This document shows positions 8,039 through 17,924 of a stretch of DNA of 33,256 nucleotides, in pieces (position 1 is the first letter of the stretch; each line of letters opens with the position of its first letter). Under the pieces are notes generated by a model. That model saw only the letters and a program-made list of their open reading frames with translations, ran no database searches and was not told the DNA's origin. This DNA comes from Chlorobiota bacterium (GTDB taxonomy: Bacteria > Bacteroidota > Bacteroidia > Bacteroidales > F082). The stretch spans positions 1 to 33,256 of the forward strand of contig JAUXDH010000010.1 of NCBI GenBank assembly GCA_030618545.1, given 5' to 3'. Made by a program: the position numbers and the translations under genes.

Positions 8039-9007
8039 ATGAAAGCAATTGTATACACACGATACGGATCACCGGATGTCCTTCAACTTAAAGAGGTAGA
8101 TAGACCTGTTCCGAAAGACGATGAAGTGTTGATTAGAGTATTTGCGGTTACCGTTAACAGGTCAGATTGTGCCATGCTCACGGCGAAACCATTTATTATG
8201 CGGTTTATGATTGGCTTCTTCAAACCAAAAAAGCAGATTCTCGGAACCGATTTTGCCGGTAAGATTGAAGCTATTGGAAAAAATATTTCATCGTTCAAAG
8301 TCGGGGATAATGTTTTTGGATTTGATGATGGTGGTTTACTTTCCCACGCTGAATACATGACACTTTCGGAAGACAATGCAATTTCAACCATGCCTGATAG
8401 CATATCCTATGAGCAAGCTGCTGCCAGCATAGAAGGTGCACATTATGCATATAATTTTATCAATAAAGTAGAGTTGAAAGGTGGAGATAAAGTGCTCGTT
8501 AATGGTGCCACAGGAGCAATCGGTTCTGCCATGGTTCAGCTTTTAAAATATTTTGGTGCAGATGTGACTGCCGTGTGCAACACAATAAACATTGAATTAA
8601 TAAAATCGATAGGTGCCGGTAAAGTAATTGATTATACCAAAGAGGACTTCACTAAAACTGATGGAAAATATCATTTTGTTTTCGATGCAGTTGGCAAAAG
8701 CACATATGGAAAGTGCAAACCATTGTTATTACCCAGAGGTGTGTATATTTCGTCTGAATTAGGTCCTATGGCCCAAAATCTTTTCTTTGCCATTTTAACA
8801 CCGATACCTGGAGGGAAAAAAGTCATATTTCCATACCCTGCTGATCGCAGAGGAAGTGTGCTTTTGATGAAAAAACTCATTGAAGAAGGAAAGTTCAAAG
8901 CCGTTATTGACAGAACATATTCATTGGACAAGGTTGCAGACGCTTTTACTTATGTTTTAACAGGTCAGAAAACCGGTAATGTTGTATTAAAGATATCAGA
9001 CTCATGA
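8039..9007 (+). CDS. Zinc-less MDR family NAD(P)-dependent oxidoreductase (quinone oxidoreductase-like)
   Basis: The 322-residue enzyme has a GroES-like N-terminal domain (AIVYTRYGSPDVLQLKEV, residues 3-20) and a Rossmann domain with NGATGAIGSA at residues 155-164. The catalytic zinc ligands of alcohol dehydrogenases are absent: the segment around residue 40 reads NRSDCAML where zinc enzymes have a Cys-Gly-Ser/Thr-Asp pattern. The structural-zinc cysteine loop is also missing. This places it with quinone oxidoreductase/enone-reductase type MDR proteins, which reduce alpha,beta-unsaturated carbonyls or quinones with NAD(P)H. It is followed 6 bases later by a decayed AlkA fragment. The substrate is unknown. 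Confidence 0.87.
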   Translation: MKAIVYTRYGSPDVLQLKEVDRPVPKDDEVLIRVFAVTVNRSDCAMLTAKPFIMRFMIGFFKPKKQILGTDFAGKIEAIGKNISSFKVGDNVFGFDDGGLLSHAEYMTLSEDNAISTMPDSISYEQAAASIEGAHYAYNFINKVELKGGDKVLVNGATGAIGSAMVQLLKYFGADVTAVCNTINIELIKSIGAGKVIDYTKEDFTKTDGKYHFVFDAVGKSTYGKCKPLLLPRGVYISSELGPMAQNLFFAILTPIPGGKKVIFPYPADRRGSVLLMKKLIEEGKFKAVIDRTYSLDKVADAFTYVLTGQKTGNVVLKISDS

Positions 9008-11088: not shown

Positions 11089-12666
11089 ATGAAAAGAATC
11101 GCCGTCTTTCTTGTTTTTGCAGCATGTTCCATGTTTGCCTTCGGGCAATTAAACATGACACAGCTGGGACATTTACCATACAGTAACAGTTTAAGTGACA
11201 TCTGGGGTTACGCCGATGAAATGGGTAATGAATATGCCCTCGTGGGAGTGTATAATGGTTTCTCGATTGTTGATGTAACTGACCCTGCTTCTCTTTCTGA
11301 GGTATATTTCGAACAAGGGGTACAATCCATTTGGAGAGACGTTAAAACTTGGAATAACCACGCTTATGTATCAACAGAAGGCGGTAACGGAATTCTTATC
11401 GTAGATATGAATCCATTGCCAGGAACCATTAGCAGCTCAACTTACTACACCGGTTCAACTTATTCTTTCACAACTGTCCACAATATTTACATTGATGAGT
11501 TTGGCAAACTTTATATTTTCGGAGCTGACAGCGGATCAGGCGGCGCTATCATTTGTGATTTAACCGGTGATCCAATGAATCCGGTTGAACTAGGCAGATT
11601 TGATGACCATTATCTGCATGATGGAATGGCACGTGGAGATACACTCTGGGGTGGCGCCATCTATGCCGGAATGATGTTAGCCATCGATGTGTCGGACCCG
11701 GAAACCCCAACGATAATAGGTTCAGCCAGTACACCAAACCAGTTTACACACAATGCATGGGTATCAGACAATGGGCAGCACGTTTTCACCACTGATGAAA
11801 TAGGTGGAGCATTCATTACTGCCTACAATGTAACCGACATGAATAATATTTATGAAACAGACCGCGTCCAGTCAAACCCAGGATCAATGGTCATTCCTCA
11901 TAATGTTCATGTATTAAACGATTACCTTGTCACCTCTTACTATGCCGATGGTGTAACTGTTCATGACGCCAACAGACCCGGCAACCTTATTGAGGTGGGT
12001 CAATACGATACCTCGCCAGACTATTCCGGTAACGGCTTCAATGGATGCTGGGGAGTTTACCCGTTTCTTCCATCAGGGAACATCGTTGCTGCCGACATCC
12101 AGGAAGGATTATATGTATTGGGGCCCGATTATAAAAGGGCCTGTTATGTTGAAGGGATAGTTACTGATAGCACAACAGGATCTCCATTGCAGGATGTTAC
12201 CGTAAGAATCATGGACACAGATTTTAGCACAGAAACAAATCTTAATGGAGATTATGCTTTTGGCACGGTAGTATCAGGGACTTACAATATCGAGTACGCT
12301 CACCCTGAATATCCGAAAAAAGTCATTGAAGATGTTGAACTCGACAATGGTGTCCTCACAAACCTTAATGTGGTGATGTCAAGCTGGTTTACCGATATTG
12401 ACGAAGTGGCTGAAAACACCAGCATTACAGCTTTTCCAAACCCTTTTAGCTCGGCTGTATCTGTTTCTTATCAATTGAACGACCAGGTATCACCTTCCTC
12501 AAGCCTGCAGGTTTTCGACGTAAATGGAAGATTGGTTGAAAAACACCAACTAACAGATCAACAAGCTACGTTATCCATTGGAAACAACCTGCCGGACGGC
12601 ATCTATTTAGTCAGGATAACTAACGGATCGGAAGTGGTAAAGGCAAGAAGAATCAGCAAACTCTGA
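11089..12666 (+). CDS. Choice-of-anchor B family protein with CarboxypepD-reg domain and T9SS sorting domain
   Basis: The 525-residue secreted protein has a signal peptide (residues 1 to about 19, cleavage near FAFGQ). A beta-propeller-like choice-of-anchor B/LVIVD region spans about 25-345 (DIWGYADEMGNEYALVGVYNGFSIVDVTDP, WRDVKTWNNHAYV, LHDGMARGDTLWGGAIY). A CarboxypepD-reg-like domain lies at about 350-430 (VEGIVTDSTTGSPLQDVTV). The end is a T9SS type A sorting domain at about 440-525 (ITAFPNPFSSAVSVSY, LPDGIYLVRI, basic end ARRISKL). It should cross the outer membrane through T9SS and be surface-attached or released. It converges on the FG-GAP T9SS gene with a 1-base gap between stop codons. 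The molecular role of the family is not established. Confidence 0.9.
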   Translation: MKRIAVFLVFAACSMFAFGQLNMTQLGHLPYSNSLSDIWGYADEMGNEYALVGVYNGFSIVDVTDPASLSEVYFEQGVQSIWRDVKTWNNHAYVSTEGGNGILIVDMNPLPGTISSSTYYTGSTYSFTTVHNIYIDEFGKLYIFGADSGSGGAIICDLTGDPMNPVELGRFDDHYLHDGMARGDTLWGGAIYAGMMLAIDVSDPETPTIIGSASTPNQFTHNAWVSDNGQHVFTTDEIGGAFITAYNVTDMNNIYETDRVQSNPGSMVIPHNVHVLNDYLVTSYYADGVTVHDANRPGNLIEVGQYDTSPDYSGNGFNGCWGVYPFLPSGNIVAADIQEGLYVLGPDYKRACYVEGIVTDSTTGSPLQDVTVRIMDTDFSTETNLNGDYAFGTVVSGTYNIEYAHPEYPKKVIEDVELDNGVLTNLNVVMSSWFTDIDEVAENTSITAFPNPFSSAVSVSYQLNDQVSPSSSLQVFDVNGRLVEKHQLTDQQATLSIGNNLPDGIYLVRITNGSEVVKARRISKL

Positions 12667-12667
12667 T

Positions 12668-14902
12668 CTATCTGACGACTATTTTCTTCATTGTAGTTTG
12701 CCCGTTTTCGGAGCTTATTCTTAGCAGGTATATGCCTTTTGGATAATTTGAAATTCTCAAAGTCAGCACATTTTCATCATGGCTGATATTCCTGTTCATC
12801 AATAACTGCCCGTAAGCATTGGTAAGCAGAATAGTATAGTCAGTATTTTCAACAGGCTCGTTAACGCGGATATTTAGTTGGTCTGTCGCGGGATTTGGAA
12901 AAACCGTCACATCGATTTGCGCTTCCATTCTCTCAGTAACATCAATAAAGACTGGTATTCCTGATTTGAGAATAGCAATCCCTCCTGCATACTCTCCATA
13001 AACCAGTTCCTCTTTGCCGTCACTATTGATATCACTTCCTGACACATTAACATTTAAACCATGCAAAAACAGGGAATCGACAATGCTAAACCCGCCATTC
13101 AGATTGTCGTCGATATCGTTGAACAGATACAAAATGCCCTTTTCAGAACCCACGTACAAAATGGAGCTTCCAACAGAACCCTTTGTCATATAGGGAGAGC
13201 TATAACCGGTGCAGCATTCCGGCATCACATCGATTTCACCGAAAAGGTCATTTGTCGGGCTTGAAGAGAAATCAGGTTCGGTATCGCTTCCGGTGTTTTT
13301 GAAATACTTGATGGTTCCGCTTCTTTCCCCAATGAGTAAATCCGGAAGTTCATCCCTGTCTACATCCACAATCTGTGGCATGGCTGTTTGGCCAACATCA
13401 ATTCCTTTGTAATTCGGGCCGCTCAGCACAAATATTGCCGGTTGTCCCTGCTCGGCGATGTTGGTAAAAAGATGGATGTTTCCTTCTTCGTCACCACTTA
13501 GCAGGTCCTGGTCTCCATCGTTATCCAAATCTCCAAAAGCCGGGTAAACACCCTTGAAGTTAAAGGCTGAGAGACCTGAGTAGTCATCTTCAATAAATTC
13601 AAAGGATGGCATCGCATTTGTTCCATTATTCCTGTAGAGAGCAAGTTTACTCTGGAAAGTAGCTGACTCAATAAAGTATCCAAAATTGCCAATCACGATA
13701 TCCTGTTTGCCATCACTGTCATAATCAAAAAACACCGGTTTGGCGCCCTCACCCACATCGATCATTTGACCCTGAAGAAAATCGTCAGCCTGGTAGGTGA
13801 ACTCAGGAGCATCCTGTGTCCCCGTATTTTTATAATACCAGGCCGAATGGGTATTAACAGATGTATTCGGGTTGTTTGGAGAGACAAGCAAATCCTTAAG
13901 CTGATCATTATTTACATCAAGATAAAAAGCAGCAGGAAAGGTGGTCAGGTCAACAGGAATTGTATTAGAGGGAAATACAGAATCAACAGCTACCATTCCT
14001 GAACTTGTCGTTGTTCCGCCATTGGTAAGTTTTACAAGGTTGTCGTGGGCAATATCTCCTATGACCAGATCTTTCACCTGATTACCGGTCAGGTCGACAG
14101 CAAGTAGTGTGGATCCGGCATGTCGTCCGCTTTTTTCAGGGTCCGGTACATTTTCAGCACAGGTATCAAACAGGTTGATCCCATTGTTGGTTTCATTTTC
14201 TGAGAAATAGCCCCAGCAGCGGTTCTTAAGTTCAAATACCAGTTCGTCACAATTACCATTATTTTCTATTGATTGGTTCTTATGGTATTCCACATATTTT
14301 CCAAGGATATCAAAGGCGAGGATATCCAGATCACCATCATTGTCAATATCAGTTATAGATGGAATATCCGGTGGACTCACATACAGAATGTCTTCACCCT
14401 GTGGAGTAGATGTCCGCAAAAGACCGGTAACCTTTGTAAACTTAATACCGGTGGAATTGGAAAAATCATTTCGATATACCGCGATCCCGAACGGTACGCT
14501 TGTAAAGATATCTTCCTTACCATCACAGTTGTAATCCGCAAGCAATGCCCAGTTTCTCATAGGGGGAAAAGCGGCCTGGTAAAATGAGTCATGATGATAA
14601 TCGACACTGTCGTTAGTTCCTTCGTTGATAAATGTCTTTACAATGCCGTTAAAGTTTCGTTCCAGTACAAAAAGATCTTTAACCCCATCGCCATCGAGGT
14701 CAATCTCCGAAAACTGTGGACTGTTGAATCCGCCTGCCCATGCCAGGTTCAACGGTTTTCCTGATACTGTTACAGGTATCGAATCTGCACGAACCAATTG
14801 TAACTGGGAGAAAACTTTAGCAGGAATTAATGCAATGAATAATATGGTAATATTTAAAGCTGCAAAGTGAGTGATTCTGGAATCATTTGACATCATGCCC
14901 AT
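12668..14902 (-). CDS. FG-GAP/VCBS repeat protein with T9SS type A sorting domain
   Basis: The 744-residue exported protein has a signal peptide (hydrophobic core about residues 14-30, cleavage near VFSQ). About nine FG-GAP/VCBS-type calcium-loop repeats follow, each with a D-x-D/N-x-D/N-G-like loop and a hydrophobic strand (EIDLDGDGVKDLFVLE, DIDNDGDLDILAFD, FDYDSDGKQDIVIG, GDLDNDGDQDLLSG, DINSDGKEELVYG). These predict a calcium-stabilised beta-propeller. Residues from about 660 form a T9SS sorting domain (VTVFPNPATDQLNIRV, YPKGIYLLRIS, MKKIVVR). It starts 38 bases after the di-heme peroxidase stop on the same strand, so it is probably the third gene of the MbnP operon. ATGs at residues 3 and 4 are alternative starts. 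The surface partner is unknown. Confidence 0.9.
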   Translation of the reverse strand: MGMMSNDSRITHFAALNITILFIALIPAKVFSQLQLVRADSIPVTVSGKPLNLAWAGGFNSPQFSEIDLDGDGVKDLFVLERNFNGIVKTFINEGTNDSVDYHHDSFYQAAFPPMRNWALLADYNCDGKEDIFTSVPFGIAVYRNDFSNSTGIKFTKVTGLLRTSTPQGEDILYVSPPDIPSITDIDNDGDLDILAFDILGKYVEYHKNQSIENNGNCDELVFELKNRCWGYFSENETNNGINLFDTCAENVPDPEKSGRHAGSTLLAVDLTGNQVKDLVIGDIAHDNLVKLTNGGTTTSSGMVAVDSVFPSNTIPVDLTTFPAAFYLDVNNDQLKDLLVSPNNPNTSVNTHSAWYYKNTGTQDAPEFTYQADDFLQGQMIDVGEGAKPVFFDYDSDGKQDIVIGNFGYFIESATFQSKLALYRNNGTNAMPSFEFIEDDYSGLSAFNFKGVYPAFGDLDNDGDQDLLSGDEEGNIHLFTNIAEQGQPAIFVLSGPNYKGIDVGQTAMPQIVDVDRDELPDLLIGERSGTIKYFKNTGSDTEPDFSSSPTNDLFGEIDVMPECCTGYSSPYMTKGSVGSSILYVGSEKGILYLFNDIDDNLNGGFSIVDSLFLHGLNVNVSGSDINSDGKEELVYGEYAGGIAILKSGIPVFIDVTERMEAQIDVTVFPNPATDQLNIRVNEPVENTDYTILLTNAYGQLLMNRNISHDENVLTLRISNYPKGIYLLRISSENGQTTMKKIVVR

Positions 14903-14940
14903 ATAATTTTCTATGCTTATAAAATATTTCCAGAGTTGGT

Positions 14941-16011
14941 TTATTCACCTTCAGTGGGGTTTGAGAAATCGGGATTGTTTACAAAGGTACTATCTGTAAG
15001 CACTTTCAGAAAGGCAATGAGGTTAAGTTTATCTTCCTCGTTCAGCCTGATGCCTCCCTGCCCTACCTGCTTCATCAGCGGATCAATGGTGGGTGACCAT
15101 TTTACTCCTTCGCTGTATTGGTCGATGACCTCTTCTATGGTTTCAAACCTGCCGTCATGCATATAAGGTGCGGTAAAGAAAACATTTCTTAATGTTGGCG
15201 CCCTGAACTTTCCAATGTCATTTGGGTTAGCTGTAACTTCAGCCAATCCGTGGTCAGAAAAAACCGAATCGAGCCCATTATTATGAAAAAGGTTATCAGT
15301 AAAAAGTATGGTGCCATGGCAATGAAAACAATCTCCTTTTTCGGTAAAGAATATCTCAAACCCTTTGGTTTCTGATTGCGATAAAGTGGCTTCGCCATTC
15401 AGGTATTTGTCCCATTTGGAATCAGATGAGATCATCGTCCGTTCAAATTGGGCAATTGCTTTAACCACAAGCATGGAATCAATATCCCGGGTTCCGAAAG
15501 CCTTAAAGAACATGTCTGGATAGTCATCATGGTTGTTCAGTTTTTTCATGGCTTCTATCCATTCCAGGTGCATCTCAATTGGATTGGGTACCGGTTCCAG
15601 GGCTTGTTCTTCAAGATTGGAAGACCTGCCATCCCAAAAAAGATCAGGCATCCAAGCTGCATTAATCAGATTCATGGAATTGCGCGTCCCGATGGAACCG
15701 TCAATACCTTCACTGAAACGTTTCCCATTGTCTGTAAAGGCAAACTCCTGCGCATGGCAGCTTCCGCATGATTGTGTGTTGTCTGCTGAAAGTATTGGAT
15801 CGTAAAAAAGTTTTTTACCCAGCTCTAATCCTTCAACAGTCATTGGATTGTCGTCAGGGATAATCATATCCGGGAATCCTTTTGGTATCTCAATCAAATA
15901 GGGTGTTGGATCAAACACCTCTGACGGGGGCTGGGGTTCTTCCTTTTTGCTGCAACTAATTGCCAGCGACAAGACAAATAGAATAACTATGGCTTTTGCC
16001 AGATCCTTCAT
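14941..16011 (-). CDS. Di-heme cytochrome c peroxidase family lipoprotein (MauG/MbnH-like)
   Basis: The 356-residue protein has a lipoprotein signal (LAISC, Cys20). It carries two c-type heme motifs, CGSCH (82-86) and CFHCH (228-232), the spacing of bacterial di-heme peroxidases and MauG-type enzymes. Other family landmarks are the inter-heme tryptophan segment LFWDGRSSNLEEQA (about 125-138) and APYMHDGRF (about 281-289). Relatives either reduce hydrogen peroxide or, in MauG and MbnH, use a bis-Fe(IV)-type state to oxidise a protein side chain. The MbnP-family gene ends 9 bases upstream on the same strand, the arrangement that defines MbnH-type enzymes. I therefore favour an MbnH-like maturase over a plain peroxidase (inference). 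Location: periplasm, lipid-anchored. Confidence 0.9.
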   Translation of the reverse strand: MKDLAKAIVILFVLSLAISCSKKEEPQPPSEVFDPTPYLIEIPKGFPDMIIPDDNPMTVEGLELGKKLFYDPILSADNTQSCGSCHAQEFAFTDNGKRFSEGIDGSIGTRNSMNLINAAWMPDLFWDGRSSNLEEQALEPVPNPIEMHLEWIEAMKKLNNHDDYPDMFFKAFGTRDIDSMLVVKAIAQFERTMISSDSKWDKYLNGEATLSQSETKGFEIFFTEKGDCFHCHGTILFTDNLFHNNGLDSVFSDHGLAEVTANPNDIGKFRAPTLRNVFFTAPYMHDGRFETIEEVIDQYSEGVKWSPTIDPLMKQVGQGGIRLNEEDKLNLIAFLKVLTDSTFVNNPDFSNPTEGE

Positions 16012-16020
16012 TCAGTTTAT

Positions 16021-16773
16021 TTACTTCAATATTTCTAAAGAAAACACATCTGCCCCGTTGTCCTTCAATTTTTGCTGCATCTCCAAATTACCCATCACCA
16101 TCGACATATCATTCAAATCAAGTGTATTTGGGTTCTCCCACCATTTGTTAATGTCCATATCAAAACGGATATCTACAGTTTGGCAATCGCATGAAAAAGG
16201 ATCCTGGGTAAGTGAAACTTCTACATAATAATGGTTACCCATGGATGGGCCTGTGTGGGCCTGGTAGTTTTTGGTCACTCCAGCGGAATCAAATTTGCCT
16301 TCAAGTTTCATGTAATGGTAGCCACTTCCCATTGCAAGGGGCCATTCCATGTTGCTTTCCGGAGGATTGGGAAATCTGCCGGCGACATTCTTTGTTTCGT
16401 TCAAACCGAAAATGAAAGTCAGTTTATTATATTTAGCCAGAGGGATACTTGCCCCTGGATTGAATACCAGAGTAGAACTTTCGCGAGCATCTACATAATG
16501 CTCAGCATCAAAAATTACCTGTGTTCCATCTTCCTGGTGCAGGGTGATATCCGATACAAAGTATTTCAGTGTCTCTACACTGTATGTATTACCAGCTTTG
16601 CTAACATATTTCATGTTGCCAAACTGGACCGTTTCAGTGCCTATGAGGTGATTGAATATGAACTTGACCTGTACGGAGTCAGCTTCATTGTTATCCTTAT
16701 TACAACTTGCAACTATCAATAAAAAACCTGATAGCACAATGATTGATAAAAAGTGTTTCATTATTATTTTCAT
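16021..16773 (-). CDS. MbnP family copper-binding-type lipoprotein
   Basis: The 250-residue lipoprotein (lipobox IVASC, Cys24) matches the MbnP family. The mature part opens with VKFIFNHLIG, then YSVETLKYFVSDITLHQEDG (residues 64-83) and the core motif MEWPLAMGSGYHYMKLEG (142-159), with a matching C-terminal strand FSCDCQTVDIRFDMD. In Methylosinus MbnP a tryptophan is converted to kynurenine by MbnH and helps bind copper. W144 in the core motif is the obvious candidate here, with nearby histidines (H153, H173, H181). It leads an operon with the di-heme enzyme (9-base gap) and the FG-GAP T9SS protein, and a perfect TAnnTTTG -7 box lies just upstream. ATG at residue 5 (16761) is an alternative start. 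Confidence 0.85.
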   Translation of the reverse strand: MKIIMKHFLSIIVLSGFLLIVASCNKDNNEADSVQVKFIFNHLIGTETVQFGNMKYVSKAGNTYSVETLKYFVSDITLHQEDGTQVIFDAEHYVDARESSTLVFNPGASIPLAKYNKLTFIFGLNETKNVAGRFPNPPESNMEWPLAMGSGYHYMKLEGKFDSAGVTKNYQAHTGPSMGNHYYVEVSLTQDPFSCDCQTVDIRFDMDINKWWENPNTLDLNDMSMVMGNLEMQQKLKDNGADVFSLEILK

Positions 16774-16802: not shown

Positions 16803-16810
16803 CAAAGATA
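16803..16810 (-). promoter_or_regulatory. Candidate Bacteroidota -7 box (TATCTTTG) for the MbnP operon
   Basis: On the minus strand TATCTTTG matches the Bacteroidota -7 consensus TAnnTTTG exactly. TTCG, a one-mismatch version of the -33 TTTG, lies 16 bases upstream (plus-strand 16827-16830). Transcription would start about 20-25 bases before the MbnP start codon at 16773. Motif and position agree; no experimental support. Confidence 0.45.
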
Positions 16811-16838: not shown

Positions 16839-17924
16839 TCAGGAAGCTAAAAACGGGTAGTCAATATACCCTTTGGTACCGCCATGATACAGGGTGGACT
16901 TATCAGTTTCATTTAACGGACCGTCTTTCAAAAACCTTTCTGCCAGGTCAGGGTTAGAAACAAACAGCTTGCCAAAAGCCACAAGGTCAGTTTGACCCTC
17001 ATTAAGTGCCAGGATAGCTGATTCTTTCGTGTGTCCGCCACAGGATATCATTGTTCCATTATAGATGCTTCTGTAAAGTGGAAGGGCTGTTTTATCGGAA
17101 TAATTACTCCTCATGTCAGGCGATATCATTTCACTGATATGCAAATATGCAAGCTGATAATCATTTAGTTTTTCTACCACATATCTAAAAGTATTGGCCT
17201 GGTCGGAATCGCCGGCGCCCGGTCTTTCAAAAGAGGGTGAAAGCCTCAGCCCGGTCCGGTCAGCAGACCATGATTCAATAACCTTATCTACAATCATGAA
17301 CAAAAATCGGGACCTGTTTTCGACAGAACCTCCGTAATCATCTGTTCGTTTATTGGTTCCGTCTCTCAGGAATTGATCGACAACGTAGCCGTGTGCACCA
17401 TGTATTTCCACTCCATCAAATCCGGCGGTTTTTGCATTGGCAGCGGCCCGGCCAAAATCTTCGACAGTTTGGTGAATCTCTTTTTCTGTCATTGGTTTTG
17501 GCGTAACATAGTCTTTATGCCCCTCAGGAGTAAGCACCTGCCCTTCCGGTTGCATAGCCGATGCCGCCAGAGGGAGGTCACCATTTGGTTGTAGCAGCGG
17601 ATGGGAATAAGGTCCGACATGCCAGAGCTGAAGAAAGATTCTGCCACCTGCTTTATGTACAGCATCTGTGACAATTTTCCATGCCTCGATTTGCTCCCTG
17701 GTGTAGCAGCCCGGCGTATTTGTGTATCCGTATGCCCTGGTTGAAATCTGACTTCCTTCCGAAATTAACAGTCCTGCGGATGACCTTTGTTCATAATATG
17801 TAGCAGTAATATCTTCAACCGCCAGTTGGTCATTTTCAGCCCTTCTTCTTGTCATCGGGGCCATGACTATCCGGTTATTCAATGTAATACCTGACAAGTC
17901 AAATGGTTGAAAAAGTTTTTCCAT
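16839..17924 (-). CDS. Alkene reductase, Old Yellow Enzyme family (NemA-like)
   Basis: This 361-residue FMN-dependent oxidoreductase reduces activated C=C bonds (enals, enones) with NAD(P)H. It starts LFQPFDLSGITLNNRIVMAPMTR, with the FMN-contacting Thr25. The substrate-binding pair H175/H178 and Tyr180 lie in EIHGAHGYVVDQFL, and the hallmark RSRFLFMIVDKV helix follows. The segment after LWHVG reads PYSHP, where most relatives have R-(I/V)-SHP; this could alter the active-site rim. A good Shine-Dalgarno (GAAAGGA, plus-strand 17931-17937) sits 6 bases before the ATG, which is unusual in this window and supports the start. The thioesterase gene lies 52 bases upstream on the same strand. The physiological substrate is unknown. 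Confidence 0.93.
   Translation of the reverse strand: MEKLFQPFDLSGITLNNRIVMAPMTRRRAENDQLAVEDITATYYEQRSSAGLLISEGSQISTRAYGYTNTPGCYTREQIEAWKIVTDAVHKAGGRIFLQLWHVGPYSHPLLQPNGDLPLAASAMQPEGQVLTPEGHKDYVTPKPMTEKEIHQTVEDFGRAAANAKTAGFDGVEIHGAHGYVVDQFLRDGTNKRTDDYGGSVENRSRFLFMIVDKVIESWSADRTGLRLSPSFERPGAGDSDQANTFRYVVEKLNDYQLAYLHISEMISPDMRSNYSDKTALPLYRSIYNGTMISCGGHTKESAILALNEGQTDLVAFGKLFVSNPDLAERFLKDGPLNETDKSTLYHGGTKGYIDYPFLAS

Follow-up and report, generated by a model that had tools for sequence, protein, structure and literature searches.

We analysed a 33,256 bp stretch of contig JAUXDH010000010.1 (assembly GCA_030618545.1) from a Chlorobiota bacterium of the Bacteroidales family F082, hereafter the window. 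Its minus strand carries, in this order, the genes for an MbnP-family lipoprotein (16021–16773), an MbnH/MauG-type di-heme lipoprotein (14941–16011) and an FG-GAP beta-propeller protein with a sorting domain of the type IX secretion system (T9SS; 12668–14902). Comparison with related genomes is evidence for a conserved unit built around MbnH and the T9SS propeller, of which MbnP and AnchB, a choice-of-anchor B (LVIVD) protein encoded next to the propeller, are regular members. MbnP/MbnH pairs are known to be widespread; in the clade described here MbnH is always accompanied by one particular surface propeller. We favour, at a probability of roughly 0.45, the reading that a variant MbnP/MbnH pair works with a specialised partner on the cell surface, together forming a surface copper system.

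Linkage of MbnH and propeller genes

To survey the distribution of the locus we used 173 genomes of the window's family. The linked type of FG-GAP protein was found in 12 of these genomes and the window type of MbnH in the same 12 (G000, G011, G012, G018, G019, G023, G025, G032, G159, G160, G163 and G164), with the two genes side by side in every case. The first-pass annotation of this DNA had staked its proposal in part on conserved co-occurrence in related genomes, and this is what we observed. Window-type MbnHs scored at least 387 bits (next score 322), and full-length linked FG-GAP proteins at least 861 bits, with one partial sequence at 726 and the next score at 650. Identical sets of 12 genomes would arise by chance with a probability of about 1e-18 under independence of the genomes, an assumption that does not hold. 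Within genera the pair is patchy, being present in 1 of 6 genomes of g1, 2 of 5 of g4, 3 of 8 of g7 and 4 of 7 of g14; the two genes therefore come and go together and seem to have been gained or lost jointly several times. AnchB (E 1e-60) was detected in all 12 pair-bearing genomes versus 3 of the other 161 (G007, G008 and G027), and window-type MbnP in 11 of the 12 versus 1 of the other 161 (G161). The MbnPs of G159 and G163 are broken or contig-edge pieces, 92–94% identical to that of G161 over 106–117 residues. Eight of the 12 genomes encode a generic FG-GAP paralogue elsewhere.

Scanning genome contigs with the FG-GAP alignment picked out 79 loci, the top scorers among 137 relatives. Of the 79, 14 have an MbnH gene upstream in the same orientation; MbnP was seen in 13 of these, and in the other the contig starts inside MbnH. 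Eight loci from further genomes carry the pair (L052, L053, L054, L055, L057, L060, L061 and L064), so that MbnH is followed by a linked FG-GAP gene in 20 loci in total (12 from the family and eight further), a number that includes near-copies such as L054 and L064. The two open reading frames (ORFs) overlap or are at most 40 bases apart in 16 of the 20, with starts called mechanically. MbnP is directly upstream of MbnH in 14 of 19 assessable loci and is elsewhere or missing in five pair-bearing genomes; in G159, G160, G163 and G164, all of genus g14, it is on another contig, and the ORFs of MbnH and the FG-GAP protein have 17 bases in common. AnchB is encoded beyond the FG-GAP gene in the three g14 genomes whose contig continues, and adjoins it or is one ORF away in 11 of the 15 loci with downstream sequence. 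The surroundings of the linked loci mostly differ, several further genes being common to the window and L035/L037. The three genes had first been proposed as a linked triplet: the link to a T9SS FG-GAP protein was upheld, but MbnH and the propeller stay together more steadily than all three genes do.

In a tree of 101 FG-GAP proteins, the 14 linked proteins and that of the window formed one clade with no unlinked member (Shimodaira–Hasegawa-like approximate likelihood ratio test, SH-aLRT, 100), and linked and unlinked labels changed twice on the tree versus 15.1 times in shuffles. The protein of L104, linked but convergent, was placed elsewhere. Addition of the linked proteins of G018, G159, G160, G163 and G164 gave a 126-row tree in which all 20 linked proteins formed one clade (SH-aLRT 97), again with no unlinked protein inside; both were quick trees. 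The MbnH tree placed 18 of the 20 linked rows in one clade (SH-aLRT 97), and its starred branches may be compatible with a single origin of the linked MbnHs. Because of the co-occurrence in 12 of 12 genomes and these trees, we consider the linkage to exceed chance. We rejected bit score as a definition of the linked FG-GAP type, as a score of about 863 bits was reached both by unlinked proteins (L067 and L132) and by a linked one (G159); since score alone does not separate them, the type is defined by the tree. The idea that the window type of MbnH is confined to linked genomes was also rejected, as relatives across the class reach 63% identity to it.

As controls, none of 11 family loci with other MbnPs (L041–L051) had a match to the window FG-GAP protein, and no linked-type FG-GAP gene was beside MbnH in 20 class-wide loci whose MbnHs are 55–63% identical to the window's. 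The FG-GAP family as such is present in 299 of 395 class genomes (E 1e-60 or better). Generic T9SS FG-GAP proteins of Bacteroidia (about 740 residues) belong to the same family as the window protein, with 41–47% identity to it in the seven compared, but their genes have no MbnH gene directly adjacent, the convergent L104 excepted. FG-GAP and MbnH genes are about 3 kb apart in L078 and L083, and in four loci of one family (L233, L235, L237 and L239) a generic FG-GAP gene lies about 2 to 4 kb off on the same strand, with an MbnP that carries a WxW motif. Judged by eye, generic FG-GAP genes adjoin apparent SecDF and TatA genes in L078, L083, L104 and L121.

The MbnH, MbnP and propeller proteins

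The di-heme protein of 356 residues matches CCP_MauG (192.2 bits), and both heme-binding motifs reported for it at first pass, CGSCH and CFHCH, are present (C82–H86 and C228–H232). Two CxxCH hemes are found in all 20 linked MbnHs. Its best PDB match is 6e1c ('Di-heme enzyme'; E 6.8e-64), which we take to be the MbnH of Methylosinus; the next, a cytochrome c peroxidase, is at 8.1e-40. From the 6e1c alignment and the MauG spacing, W126, E146 and Y299 would correspond to MauG Trp93, Glu113 and Tyr294, and all three are kept in 20 of 20 linked MbnHs (MauG residue numbers and roles follow excerpts of PMC6405878). The spacing of Gln at +10, Pro at +14 and Glu at +20 from the Trp is retained as W126, Q136, P140 and E146; Q136 and P140 are found in 18 of 20 linked MbnHs and are missing from the G011 and G012 rows. 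The assignment to the MbnH type made at first pass is thus strengthened at these positions, the predicted Tyr axial ligand of the six-coordinate heme, bridging Trp and distal Glu of MbnH and MauG all being present. In G011 and G012 (L032 10198–11202 and L033 7486–8490) about 20 residues are missing before and in the distal-pocket region, with loss of the Gln and Pro and retention of the Trp, Glu and Tyr.

The MbnP protein of 250 residues, with a lipid Cys at position 24 by a rough lipobox pattern, passed the gathering cut-off of PF20243 (92.7 versus 27 bits). Its AlphaFold model (mean predicted local distance difference test, pLDDT, 74.9) matched chain B of 7l6g, MbnP of Methylosinus, with Z 14.0 and a root-mean-square deviation of 3.2 over 199 aligned residues, the next match being at Z 5.5; the modelled protein has the MbnP fold. 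PDB sequence searches with MbnP alone or with our alignment A1 returned no credible relative. The alignment of phylum MbnPs of the WxW type reached 7l6g (E 2.7e-10), and a profile comparison of these with the window MbnP gave a probability of 99.7. The motif region of the window protein reads M-E-W-P-L-A-M-G-S-G-Y-H-Y-M-K (M142-E-W144-P ... G-Y-H153-Y-M155-K). In the profile alignment, W144 is aligned with the first Trp of WxW and M148 occupies the second Trp position. All 17 rows of alignment A1 and all 14 of alignment A5 share H42, M142, W144, P145, Y152–K156 and H173 without exception, and this WP form also occurs in some MbnPs outside the window's family (L230 and L242). Of 20 phylum loci retrieved with TIGR04052, 18 have WxW; in the remaining two a wrong-frame ORF had apparently been picked. 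Because the second Trp is lost and the first kept, we regard the window MbnP as a divergent subfamily; the initial MbnP assignment was borne out in family and fold, but not as a standard WxW protein.

Methylosinus trichosporium OB3b carries MbnP and MbnH (7l6g and 6e1c) as an adjacent gene pair, as does the window. The two MbnPs share the fold and the first Trp of WxW, whereas the window protein has lost the second, has a loop two residues longer, is 12% identical in the structural alignment and, unlike Methylosinus MbnP, bears the signature WPxxMGxGYHYMK. The window system also differs in its T9SS propeller partner and in that no methanobactin gene was found among the ten window proteins scanned. 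A 2021 PNAS study reportedly identified the first Trp of WxW in MbnP as the residue converted to kynurenine, and is said to describe a copper site made up of His, Met, solvent and the kynurenine.

The propeller protein of 744 residues has a signal segment, a match to FG-GAP_3 (PF13517; 84.7 bits) and a Por_Secre_tail domain (PF18962; 66.3 bits, cut-off 27), corresponding to a T9SS type A sorting domain at residues 667–743. The tail exceeded the cut-off in all 12 further linked FG-GAP proteins scanned. The genome assembly (2.77 Mb in 225 contigs, 88% complete) encodes the T9SS component SprA (2527.6 bits), and with tail domain and secretion system both present the propeller is predicted to be T9SS type A cargo. 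There are 98 Por_Secre_tail matches in this genome (E 0.001 or better), and we therefore rejected the view that a T9SS neighbour is remarkable in itself. The propeller model (pLDDT 83.8) comprises an N-terminal helix, a strand-rich part that extends to around residue 650 and a domain of strands at the C-terminus. The PDB entries that matched it best were family 43 and family 32 glycoside hydrolases, both five-bladed propellers, at Z values reaching 18.0 across some 250 residues, with integrins and phytases scoring lower; in the model, these matches show a propeller and indicate no function. Eight strict Dx[DN]x-type loops of calcium-binding type are the basis on which the propeller may be calcium dependent. 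Linked and unlinked FG-GAP proteins could be told apart at 23 positions.

Locus layout and other MbnP/MbnH loci

The ORFs at 16773–16021, 16011–14941 and 14902–12668 confirmed the order, strand and intergenic gaps of 9 and 38 bases first described for the three genes. The exact TAnnTTTG box noted in front of them was likewise recovered as TATCTTTG (16803–16810, minus strand), a candidate Bacteroidota-type -7 box from the start of which the MbnP ATG is 37 bases away; we take TAnnTTTG to be the Bacteroidota -7 consensus. When the 150-base region upstream of MbnP was base-shuffled 500 times, 9% of the shuffled sequences contained the pattern by chance. Of 13 assessable loci, with the window and near-copies counted, 7 have it in the 150 bases upstream versus 1.09 expected. 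A terminator-like hairpin at 16871–16855, found by consensus match at the end of the oxidoreductase gene upstream of MbnP, would fit a predicted transcript beginning at MbnP. The AnchB gene (11089–12666, plus strand; TIGR04312, 201.4 bits), a conserved neighbour whose product has a T9SS tail, is convergent with the FG-GAP gene with 1 base between them. In L054, two small overlapping ORFs (8266–8926) separate MbnH from the propeller, the first resembling, by eye, a toxin–antitoxin nucleotidyltransferase. Ahead of the cluster, G011 and G012 and, by clustering, G032 encode a DUF5916 protein that bears a CBM9-like domain (L032 6648–9317 and L034 11497–14205; tested on L032).

The proposal of a Bacteroidota version of the MbnP/MbnH system fits in that a variant pair is present, but such pairs are common in Bacteroidota and a second one occurs in the window's own genome (L051). 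Other family MbnP/MbnH loci have a WP-subtype MbnP and an MbnH as in the window, without the FG-GAP gene. Three of them show the layout TonB receptor, small lipoprotein of 120 residues, MbnP and MbnH (L045 8411–13280, L046 2057–11540 and L051 6699–11578). The receptor was identified by test on L045, and L051 has the same layout; the one small lipoprotein tested had no Pfam match. In several such loci, genes for a DUF2027/Smr protein and for a cytochrome c assembly protein of the ResB/CcsA kind lie nearby (tested on L046, others by eye), and a heme-supply link is plausible. On the single contig of G142, MbnP and MbnH were each found once, at a distance of about 880 kb, neither beside the other (L183 9405–10568 and L042 9600–10412).

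A possible surface copper system and its alternatives

The most economical mechanism for this locus would be an MbnP/MbnH copper system that operates at the cell surface. In the most likely route, the lipoproteins MbnP and MbnH would go to the outer membrane and probably face outward, as the residues after the lipid Cys may indicate: Lys at +3 in 13 of 16 assessable linked MbnP/MbnH rows versus 15 of 68 background lipoprotein-like ORFs, a mean of 1.88 versus 0.47 acidic residues at +3 to +7, and a strict CxK[DE][DE] in 3 of 16 versus 2 of 68. In this count, 11 of 27 rows were cut or unassessable by the rough lipobox pattern, near-copies were included and window rows left out; the motif is that given in excerpts of PMC5080379. 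With H2O2, MbnH would reach a MauG-like high-valent di-heme state and oxidise W144 of MbnP, by analogy to kynurenine; the modified residue would then complete a Cu(I) site with a Met and a His of the family, for which M142 and H173 are candidates. The T9SS-exported propeller, often together with AnchB, may hold or dock MbnH and/or MbnP at the surface and might itself take part in copper capture.

Comparable arrangements exist in methanotrophs, where MopE/SACCP and CorA/CorB combine a MauG-like enzyme with a neighbouring surface copper(I) protein containing kynurenine, according to excerpts of PMC3912023 and PMC3621798. CorA provides a precedent for a surface-located kynurenine–copper protein (PMC3912023, excerpt), and the excerpted text of PMC3621798 states that the MbnP sequence shows no marked similarity to MopE or CorA. 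No T9SS partner is known for the MopE and CorA systems, unlike that of the window. Among the matches listed from the open-access literature, no paper ties MbnP/MbnH to T9SS or FG-GAP proteins.

Several observations weigh against a surface copper system. The window MbnP has no second Trp in its WxW region and falls short of the TIGR04052 equivalog cut-off (19.5 versus 140 bits), a cut-off that is strict for Bacteroidota because none of 296 phylum genomes exceeds it; its model is least confident at residues 139–143, beside W144. The window MbnH is likewise under the TIGR04039 cut-off (287.6 versus 362.85 bits), and the G011 and G012 MbnHs with the deletion are outside the linked clade on a long branch. 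G018 (83% complete) has the pair with only another type of MbnP and none of the window type, and G161 (77% complete) carries the window-type MbnP without the pair. No Trp, Cys or His specific to the linked propeller clade was found (at least 85% of linked and at most 25% of unlinked rows). MbnH and propeller gave no sign of co-variation: their distances correlated at 0.08 over the 11 taxa with MbnP, a value reached in 3077 of 9999 permutations, and on the same taxa the correlation was 0.26 for MbnH and MbnP and 0.40 for propeller and MbnP; an MbnH–propeller value of 0.68 on 15 taxa (without L053, L056, L063, L064 and L223) was dropped. The lipoprotein export signal is weak, a hint only at the sequence level, and the ten window proteins scanned (Pfam and NCBIfam) include no known copper gene besides MbnP.

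A bolder form of the surface copper system, possible but on the unlikely side, has MbnH dedicated to a surface machine: the enzyme would dock on or oxidise the T9SS propeller, and the oxidised-Trp copper site would be made or used within a complex on the outer-membrane surface that unites MbnH and MbnP with two T9SS proteins. We think it unlikely that MbnH and the propeller form the functional pair, with MbnH oxidising the propeller or AnchB, or the propeller acting as redox partner, and MbnP an auxiliary or second substrate. Such a pairing would account for the linked propeller following MbnH in 20 of 20 loci when MbnP is directly upstream in only 14 of 19, and for the gene content of G018. 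However, a window-type MbnP is still encoded in 11 of the 12 pair-bearing family genomes, most Trp, Cys and His residues conserved among linked propellers are shared by their unlinked relatives, so that no new target residue is apparent, and an enzyme that is a lipoprotein would need to encounter the propeller either ahead of its export or afterwards.

Quite unlikely, in our view, is the presence of two unrelated units in one operon, an ordinary MbnP/MbnH pair and a T9SS protein of separate function held together by shared regulation or block inheritance. T9SS proteins are abundant in this genome, the FG-GAP family is widespread in the class, MbnHs 55–63% identical sit in other contexts in 20 loci, and the window shares some flanking genes with L035/L037. 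Set against this are the exact co-occurrence within patchy genera, the persistence of linkage despite changed surroundings and relocation of MbnP, and the separate clade formed by the linked FG-GAP proteins, 8 of the 12 genomes holding a generic paralogue as well. Canonical cytochrome c peroxidases have a Met at the position of the six-coordinate heme Tyr ligand. That the di-heme protein is merely such a peroxide-detoxifying enzyme and MbnP is not oxidised is very improbable, in spite of the CCP_MauG superfamily membership and the missing second Trp, given Y299 at the MauG/MbnH ligand position with the aligned Tyr of 6e1c, the far better match to 6e1c than to the next entry, a cytochrome c peroxidase, and the MauG-type Trp/Gln/Pro/Glu spacing.

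A search of the open-access literature found no precedent for a MauG-family protein-modifying enzyme acting with type IX cargo, which is what the bolder form of the surface copper system would amount to if true. The MbnH–propeller clade supplies a defined partner for experiments and directs attention to the Bacteroidota cell surface. If Trp-derived copper sites do exist there, they would represent a new way of copper handling.

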